A stretch of DNA of 33,257 nucleotides from Flavobacteriales bacterium (GTDB taxonomy: Bacteria > Bacteroidota > Bacteroidia > Flavobacteriales_G > NORP312): the NCBI GenBank assembly GCA_016763645.1, contig JAESTK010000149.1:1-33257 (forward strand). The letters are read 5' to 3'. Position numbers and translations under genes: made by a program. The notes below the pieces were generated by a model. The model made no database searches and had not been told where the DNA came from. It was given only the letters and a program-made list of their open reading frames with translations. Below, in pieces: positions 7,908-33,257 of the stretch; within the stretch, counting starts at the first letter, position 1; the number at the start of each line of letters is the position of its first letter.

Positions 7908-9458
7908 TCACTTCGGACTCAATTCAATAAAGGGAATCAACATTTCTTCCATAGAAATACCACCATGCTGAAACGTATCTCTGTAGAGCTTTACGTAATG
8001 GTTAAAATTATTCGGGTATGCGAAAAACTTATCCTCTCTTGCAAAAAGATAGGTTGAGCTTACATTGGTTTTTGGAAGAAAAATATCGTCTGGATTACGT
8101 ACTTCAAACACATCTTTAGGGTTGTACTGCAAGTTTTTTCCTACTTTGTAACGAAGATTCGTATTCGTGTATTTATCGCCAATAACCTTCGTGGGTTCCT
8201 TAACACGTACTGTTCCATGATCGGTCGCGATAAGTATTTTCCCTTTACAGGCATGAATTTTTTTAACGATATCGTATAACGGAGAATGCTCGAACCAAGA
8301 AACCGTTAACGAACGATATGCCGCTTCGTCATCTGCCAATTCTTTAATGACTTCCATATCGGTTCTAGCATGCGACAACATATCTACAAAATTGTAAACG
8401 ATTACATTAAAATCATTGTGCTGAATATTACTGAAATTATCTACCAATCTTTTACCCGCAGCGTGATTTGTGATTTTGTTGTACGATGATTTTACATTCT
8501 TGCCTAATCGCCTCAATTGCTCTTTAAGGAATTCATCTTCGTGCATGTTTTTTCCGCCCTCGTCATTTTCATTTTTCCACAACTTGGGAAAACGACTTTC
8601 AATTTCTGAAGGCATTAACCCCGCAAAAAGTGCATTTCGAGAATATTGGGTTGCTGTTGGCAAAATACTATAAAAAAGCTCTTCGTTGTCAACATTAAAA
8701 TACTCTCGCATAATGGGACGAATCATTTGCCATTGATCGTAACGCAGGTTATCAATCAACAATAAGAATACTGGCTGACTACCTTCAATTTTAGGTGCAA
8801 TTCTTTCCTTAAATAACGTGTGTGACATAATTGGCGCATCATCTGAAGAATGCAACCAATCAATATAATTTCGTTGAATGAACTTAAAAAACTGTGCATT
8901 AGCTTCCTGCTTTTGCATAGTTAGAATTTCGGTCATACTCTCGTCATTTCCGTTTTCCAATTCTAACTCCCAATAGACTAATTTCTTATAGATTTCACCC
9001 CATTCTTCAACAGATAAATTCCCAGAAAGAGTCATAGCAATTTCGCGAAATTCTTGCTGATAATTCGATGTAGATTTCTCTGAACGTAACCGTTTCGAAT
9101 CCAAATTCCGTTTCAGTGAAAGCAAAATCTGATTAGGATTTACTGGTTTTATTAAGTAATCAGAAATTTTAGAGCCAATCGCTTCTTCCATGATTGATTC
9201 TTCCTCGCTTTTAGTAATCATGATAATAGGCAGCGAAGGATGTTTAGCCTTTATTCGCGTTAAAGCTTCTAAACCAGATATTCCAGGCATGTTTTCATCA
9301 AGAAAGACAATATCAAAGTTTTTCTCGTTCACTTTATCAATGGCATCATCGCCATTGTTTACAGTTTCAACGGTAAATCCTTTTTGTTCAAGAAACATGA
9401 CATGAGGTTTTAACAAATCAATTTCGTCATCTGCCCATAAAATCTTGATATTTTCCAT
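7908..9458 (-). CDS. porX: PorX: response regulator fused to a PglZ phosphatase-like domain
   Basis: PorX is the response regulator paired with the PorY sensor kinase. It controls type IX secretion genes together with the sigma factor SigP, and its PglZ domain is a metal-dependent phosphodiesterase-type fold. The receiver domain (1-~120) has the acidic pair Asp10/Asp11, phospho-acceptor Asp54 (DIVFLDENM), Thr82 and Lys104 (LIKPVNP). The PglZ domain (~200-516) shows PVFLLLIDNLRYDQW, the nucleophile-type motif PTATQYSRNALFAG, KILIATDHGTVRV and TFQHGGISMEEML. Length (516 aa) and order match the family. porY, sigP and por structural genes are not in the window. It leads the minus-strand run into tsaE and ald. 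Confidence 0.95.
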   Translation of the reverse strand: MENIKILWADDEIDLLKPHVMFLEQKGFTVETVNNGDDAIDKVNEKNFDIVFLDENMPGISGLEALTRIKAKHPSLPIIMITKSEEESIMEEAIGSKISDYLIKPVNPNQILLSLKRNLDSKRLRSEKSTSNYQQEFREIAMTLSGNLSVEEWGEIYKKLVYWELELENGNDESMTEILTMQKQEANAQFFKFIQRNYIDWLHSSDDAPIMSHTLFKERIAPKIEGSQPVFLLLIDNLRYDQWQMIRPIMREYFNVDNEELFYSILPTATQYSRNALFAGLMPSEIESRFPKLWKNENDEGGKNMHEDEFLKEQLRRLGKNVKSSYNKITNHAAGKRLVDNFSNIQHNDFNVIVYNFVDMLSHARTDMEVIKELADDEAAYRSLTVSWFEHSPLYDIVKKIHACKGKILIATDHGTVRVKEPTKVIGDKYTNTNLRYKVGKNLQYNPKDVFEVRNPDDIFLPKTNVSSTYLFAREDKFFAYPNNFNHYVKLYRDTFQHGGISMEEMLIPFIELSPK

Positions 9459-31913: not shown

Positions 31914-32942
31914 TTAGAATTTGTGTTCTTTGACTGTTTCAATAAAATACTTTACATGGTCTGGATTTGTGTCAGGGTACAACCCGTGTCCTAAATTTGC
32001 AATATGCTTTGTTGCCCCAAATGTATTTAACATTTTTTTGGTTGCCGCTTTTATTGTTGATTTATCTGAGTAGAGCAAACATGGGTCCAAATTTCCTTGT
32101 AAAGTCATGTTTTGCCCAATGAGCGCCCTCGATTCTTCAATGTCCATATTCCAATCAAGACCAATAGCTTGGCAATTGAGCATTCCTAACTCTTTTCTCA
32201 CATAATAAGCCCCTTTGGCAAATACCGTTTTGGGAACAGTGTCTACCGCATCACAAATTTTGCTAATGTATGGAAGAGCGAACTCTAAATATTGTTCTCT
32301 GCTTAGTACTCCCGCCCAACTATCAAACAACTGAATGAGGTCTACCCCCGCTGCAACTTGCGCTTTTAAATAGGCGATAGTGCTTTCCGTTATCATCCCC
32401 AGCAATCTATGAGAAAGTTCAGGATTTGTGTATAACATCTTTTTTGCTTTCGCGAAAGTTTTCGTTCCTTGACCTTCTATCATATATGAAAAAATAGTCC
32501 AAGGAGCGCCTGCAAACCCAATAAGAGGCACTCTGCCATTCAATTCATTTTTGGTCAAACGAATAGCATCGGTAACGTATTTAAGCGATTCTTCTGGGTC
32601 GGCAATTCTTAATTGTTCAACATCTGATAACGTTTTTACAGTATTCTCAAAGTACGGACCTTGTTTTTCAATTAGTTGATACGGCAGCCCCATTGCCTCC
32701 GGAATTACCAAAATATCGGAAAAAATAATGGCAGCATCTACCTCCAAAATATCGACTGGCTGTATGGTGACTTCACACGCTAACTCTGGTGTTTCTACCA
32801 ATTCTTTAAATCCACTAATACTGTTTCGAATTGCTCGATACTCAGGCAAGATTCTACCTGCTTGTCGCATTAACCAAACGGGAGTTCTCTCAACATTTTC
32901 TCCCTGTGCCGCTCTAAGTAATAAATCGTTTTGAAGTTTCAT
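31914..32942 (-). CDS. hemE: Uroporphyrinogen decarboxylase
   Basis: Removes four carboxyl groups from uroporphyrinogen III to give coproporphyrinogen III in heme synthesis. The 342-aa product has the family signature [20 protein letters not shown], the catalytic Asp segment [14 protein letters not shown], the [13 protein letters not shown] stretch and the C-terminal [12 protein letters not shown]. It is the first gene of a tight minus-strand run, with the OmpA-like gene starting three bases after its stop. It diverges from the acetyltransferase over 53 bases. Confidence 0.97.
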
Positions 32943-32947
32943 TGGTG

Positions 32948-32955
32948 CAAATTTA
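32948..32955 (-). promoter_or_regulatory. hemE: Putative hemE -7 element
   Basis: On the minus strand this reads TAAATTTG, an exact TAnnTTTG match, six bases before the hemE ATG. It would give a nearly leaderless transcript. No -33 partner is clear. Confidence 0.3.
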
Positions 32956-32979
32956 GGATAAATGTTTGCTTTTCTGTAC

Positions 32980-32987
32980 TACCTTTG
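32980..32987 (+). promoter_or_regulatory. Putative -7 element of the acetyltransferase gene
   Basis: TACCTTTG, an exact TAnnTTTG match, eight bases before the acetyltransferase ATG. A TTTG sits only 11 bases upstream, which is too close for a -33 box. Confidence 0.4.
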
Positions 32988-32995
32988 AATCTGTT

Positions 32996-33241
32996 ATGAA
33001 ACTAAAATGGACGGCTAAAACTTTTGATGAGTTAACAAACACAGAGCTGTATAATATACTCGCTCTTAGAACTGAAGTTTTTGTAGTTGAGCAAAACTGC
33101 CCGTACCAAGAATGTGATGGCAATGACGAAGTTTCCATTCATTTTTTTGGAACACTTGACAATAAAATTGTTGGCCCGCTGTTGCCAACGAACGACGCGA
33201 CGGTGTCCGATCACCAGGATCGAACAACTGCGCCGTGCTGA
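32996..33241 (+). CDS. ElaA-like GNAT acetyltransferase, truncated by foreign sequence
   Basis: The first ~59 residues, MKLKWTAKTFDELTNTELYN to about LDNKIVG, match the N-terminus of ElaA-type N-acetyltransferases (LRTEVFVVEQNCPYQECDGND is the diagnostic part). Family members are about 150 aa and would continue into the acetyl-CoA-binding core. Here the reading frame runs on as PLLPTNDATVSDHQDRTTAP to a stop at 33239-33241, with no family resemblance and a sharp rise in GC. I count about 60% GC in the last 85 bases, against the AT-rich rest. The true gene probably continues elsewhere. I start it at the ATG at 32996; a TTG ten codons upstream would precede the predicted promoter. Confidence 0.75.
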   Translation: MKLKWTAKTFDELTNTELYNILALRTEVFVVEQNCPYQECDGNDEVSIHFFGTLDNKIVGPLLPTNDATVSDHQDRTTAPC

Positions 33242-33257
33242 AACACCTTGTTCCTGA
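33173..33257. other. GC-rich foreign-looking contig end
   Basis: These 85 bases are about 60% GC by my count, whereas the preceding sequence is AT-rich, and they break a recognisable acetyltransferase gene. No transposon end, tRNA or attachment site explains the switch. A chimeric or contaminated assembly end is the simplest reading. Confidence 0.7.

Follow-up and report, generated by a model that had tools for sequence, protein, structure and literature searches.

The DNA examined here is contig JAESTK010000149.1 of a fragmented draft Flavobacteriales genome (hereafter C120). Our window is this entire contig, positions 1–33257, and thus the end of the window is also the end of the contig. 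It stops inside a gene for an ElaA-like acetyltransferase of the GNAT family, and its last bases are much richer in guanine and cytosine (GC) than the remainder of the genome. Such an ending raises a simple question: was the gene broken in the chromosome by the arrival of alien sequence, or was it broken only in the assembly? An earlier note on this DNA, made by inspection of its letters, had considered horizontal acquisition but thought it more likely that the contig end is chimeric or contaminated. Here, we describe a second contig of the same genome that carries the rest of the gene, compare the locus with that of a relative in the same genus, and conclude that C120 very probably ends in a chimera, produced by a chimeric read or by a faulty extension during assembly, and not in a biological feature.

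The draft genome (G000) comprises 3,314,940 bases in 361 contigs, with a completeness of 92.1 and a contamination of 1.42. Its fragmentation, together with a shortest sampled contig of 3,088 bases, suggests that it is a metagenome bin.

The continuation of the gene

When positions 32900–33257 were compared with the genome from which they come, the only match besides the sequence itself was to the first 38 bases of another contig, C64, which are identical to positions 33136–33173 of C120. Conversely, when positions 1–300 of C64 were used as the query, the genome yielded only C64 itself and this same segment of C120 (expectation value, E, ≤0.001). In the alignment of the two contigs the identity extends through position 33173, and from 33174 onward they diverge. 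Beyond the shared segment, C64 maintains the acetyltransferase frame up to a stop codon at its positions 305–307, and the gene read across the overlap encodes a protein of 148 residues.

This joined protein resembles known acetyltransferases over nearly its full span. It matches both PA0115 (PDB 1xeb; E 1.9e-39, residues 1–147 of the 148) and the ElaA protein of Escherichia coli (PDB 5z6n; E 2.3e-33, residues 3–146), and it has two Pfam GNAT matches that exceed their cut-offs: PF13673 (E 3.9e-13, residues 33–147) and PF00583 (E 5.4e-10, residues 36–128). Its score against the NCBIfam equivalog model NF007644 does not reach the cut-off of that model (128.2 vs 171 bits); hence, we describe the protein as ElaA-like and not as the named equivalog.

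The same locus in related genomes

A search with positions 33100–33257 was made in 41 genomes, that is, the genome itself and 40 relatives. Matches were found only in the genome itself and in one other member of the genus (G002), whose sequence aligns with positions 33100–33173 at 84% identity and halts exactly at 33173; the remaining part of the query is unmatched in the 40 relatives. The other genome of the genus (G001, 82% complete) gave no match to this query. In G002 the elaA gene is uninterrupted, with a GTG start and 148 residues, and the piece that carries it aligns with positions 33016–33173 of C120 and with positions 2–297 and 402–1418 of C64. On both G002 and C64 the elaA gene is followed, on the opposite strand, by an aconitase gene recognized by its Pfam aconitase domains. 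The upstream neighbors differ: C120 has a uroporphyrinogen decarboxylase gene (PF01208, E 1e-133) and G002 has another gene. The uninterrupted gene and the position of the aconitase gene in G002 indicate that the continuation held in common with the relative is the C64 side of the fork and not the GC-rich tail of C120.

These observations bear directly on the simplest reading of the deposited contig, namely that the tail is native and that a recent horizontal acquisition or rearrangement has truncated the gene in the chromosome. The contig, as deposited, does read in this way; nevertheless, the rest of the gene lies in the same assembly, starts from the same 38 bases, and has the gene order of the same-genus genome. 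We therefore regard a native tail as highly improbable, and horizontal acquisition is rejected since the remainder of the gene was found in the same assembly.

The breakpoint and the composition of the tail

The final native base is 33173 and the foreign DNA starts at 33174 (Table 1). The earlier note had placed the break near 33173, and both the divergence of C64 and the end of the G002 alignment bear this out to within one base. A change-point scan of GC content in the last 600 bases, which makes no use of any alignment, also found its best break at 33173, with a gain of 7.4 nats (the next-best breaks were 33170, 33172, and 33174, with gains of 6.9–7.0 nats), in agreement with the breakpoints given by the alignments.

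Table 1. Features at the right end of contig C120 (strand "." = none assigned)
Feature	Positions	Strand	Basis or remark
Native 5' part of the elaA-like GNAT acetyltransferase gene	32996..33173	+	59 codons and the first base of codon 60; protein and Pfam matches after joining to C64
38 bases shared exactly with the start of C64 (positions 1–38)	33136..33173	+	True continuation of the gene begins there
GC-rich foreign tail of 84 bases, very probably a chimeric contig end	33174..33257	.	GC content, Markov likelihood, single copy, no full or near-full match

The composition of the tail was assessed in two samples of the genome. In the first, the internal 84-base windows of the first 121 contigs, the mean GC content was 36.6%, as against 59.5% for the tail; for the 85 bases of 33173–33257 the value is 60.0%, which is what the earlier note had estimated by giving about 60%. 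The second sample consisted of 141 of the 361 contigs (1,300,935 bases), which provided 14,747 internal 84-base windows, 270 contig ends, and the training set of a fourth-order Markov model. Only two of these windows have a GC content as high as that of the tail and none has a Markov likelihood as low; among the contig ends, the tail of C120 has the lowest likelihood and is thus the most atypical of all 270. It also contains 10 CpG dinucleotides where 2.6 would be expected.

The C120 frame begins at the ATG at 32996 and encodes 59 native residues ending in LDNKIV, followed by 22 residues from the tail and a stop codon at 33239–33241. This product of C120 alone has no Pfam family at E≤1. It was previously reported to have 82 residues, but the correct length is 81, the larger number being the count of codons with the stop included. 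The accompanying warning that such a protein would mislead its users was well founded: 22 of its 81 residues are foreign to the gene.

Search for a donor

The earlier note had called for a nucleotide search of the GC-rich end. This has now been done and yielded no full or near-full match in the collections searched. In its own genome the tail is single copy, the sole other match being one of 14 bases (E 2.9). Under blastn settings suited to distant similarity, positions 33170–33257 matched nothing among phage records, plasmids, or E. coli genomes, and exact tail patterns of 25 and 22 bases were absent from the genome_contigs collection. When three exact 20-base patterns were sought in the viral_contigs collection, two had no match and the third (33173–33192) had one, which reached 22 bases before it ended; it falls within long open reading frames in a piece of viral contig with 69% GC. 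We provisionally treat this match as due to chance or too short to be meaningful. In the phylum, a search of 395 genomes including the one studied gave weak matches of 22–34 bases in five others (E 4.0e-4 to 7.3e-3 per genome). These fall at various places in the tail and overlap one another in part; chance alone would give about four of them at E≤0.01 in 394 genomes. Finally, four open reading frames of the tail had no Pfam family at E≤1.

Could the tail nonetheless be the end of an undescribed GC-rich mobile element, such as an insertion sequence, that has entered elaA in a part of the population? An element of this kind would account for the presence of both branches at one base, C64 being the empty site and C120 the occupied one, and for the sharp change in composition where the tail starts; the exact match of 33173–33192 to a 69% GC viral stretch could also be cited in its favor. 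The searches above argue against it at several points. The tail is single copy, the four open reading frames tested match no Pfam family, nothing in the phage, E. coli, or plasmid collections matches its DNA, and the two genome_contigs scans gave no exact match. The viral match terminates after 22 bases inside long open reading frames, and not at a recognized end of an element. Of any such element only 84 bases, from one side, are present, and no far side of an insertion was seen, C120 being the only other contig that matches positions 1–300 of C64 at the threshold used above. An end that recurs in its own or in other genomes, as expected of an insertion sequence, was not found here, and we judge an element to be a very unlikely source of the tail. 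A remnant of an adapter or a cloning vector, instead of DNA from another organism, seems to us scarcely credible. The tail has no match in the E. coli genomes or plasmids and is not known to resemble any adapter.

Other contig ends of the genome

The sampled contigs frequently share sequence at their ends, with recurrent overlaps of 129 and 99 bases, as expected for contigs limited by k-mer length. Two contigs (C4 and C23) also have 38 bases in common, but both of these ends run in the same direction. A scan of the sampled contigs for forks with an overhang returned 19 ordered pairs, 16 of them within one repeated family of ends. The other three were C120/C64 (38 bases shared, 84 of overhang), C125/C98 (25 and 60), and C132/C91 (27 and 3).

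A common repeated sequence, with overlaps of ≤129 bases, occurs at a series of ends (L008, L014, L024, L035, L039, L044, L053, L057, L061, L070, L080, L084, and L095); this is probably a multicopy repeat that breaks the assembly. Three other GC-rich ends were examined. At the right end of G000:C14 (about 8440–8781) the GC content rises to 49–53%. An open reading frame on the opposite strand there has a weak DUF11 match below the cut-off (E 0.0075), and it opposes a plus-strand frame that resembles a transporter permease by eye, the tested stretch of which has no Pfam match; this may be another chimeric end. The left end of G000:C123 (1–100; 58% GC) is the second most atypical of the 270, and the rest of that contig has one open reading frame with a helix-turn-helix match (HTH_17) and another for a KAP NTPase, which may represent a mobile or defence island. 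At the right end of G000:C78 (3732–3892), a stretch of 24% GC is followed by the start of an open reading frame, in which the contig ends. The TniQ match of this frame (E 1.3e-5) scores 26.3 bits, just under the 27 bits that Pfam requires, and C78 may belong to an island carried by a transposon. Continuation contigs for the right ends of C14 and C78 were searched for in the genome and none was found. Among these two ends and the left end of C123, whose continuation was not searched, there is no second GC-rich end with a proven continuation.

Discussion

The argument for a chimeric end is that native sequence forks at a single base, with an 84-base foreign branch that stops at the end of a contig on one side and, on the other, a native branch held in common with a relative. 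The native sequence resumes on C64 from the very breakpoint at which C120 leaves it, and what C120 has instead is atypical of the genome in both its GC content and its Markov likelihood. The preference of the earlier note for a chimera or contamination over horizontal transfer is thus supported by C64, by the uninterrupted gene and the gene order of G002, and by the single-copy state of the tail, for which the collections searched gave no full or near-full match.

An assembler, or a chimeric sequencing read, would have joined 84 bases of GC-rich DNA at 33173 inside the elaA-like gene; these bases probably came from the DNA of a second organism present in the library. The genuine sequence, which forks at the same base, would then have been left as the start of the separate contig C64 with its 38-base overlap. 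The fork itself, the continuation on C64, its conservation in G002, the foreign composition, and the lack of any other copy of the tail in the assembly are direct observations. From them we infer that the join arose in a chimeric read or through a wrong path in the assembly, and not by a real insertion in some of the cells, and that the added DNA came from another organism.

Several considerations weigh against this conclusion. It was reached from assembled sequence, and the collections searched revealed no donor for the 84 bases. A real insertion in part of the population would also generate a fork with both branches represented. In addition, the 38-base overlap differs from the recurrent overlaps of 129 and 99 bases at other contig ends.

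The relevance of these results is limited to the hygiene of annotation. The protein predicted from the end of C120 is an artefact to be discarded. Reading the gene from C120 into C64 restores it and also gives a supported adjacency, such that the two contigs should be treated as neighbors in later curation. Where two contigs of one bin share a short exact overlap and the end of one of them forks within it, this provides a usable sign of a chimera even when no reads are at hand.

The contamination of assemblies by chimeric sequence is treated in section 2.7 of PMC10978663. As in the chimeric contamination described in that section, C120 joins sequences of apparently different origin within a fragmented draft genome. 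The present case differs from that description in that it involves only 84 bases, names no source, and has its correct continuation preserved on another contig.
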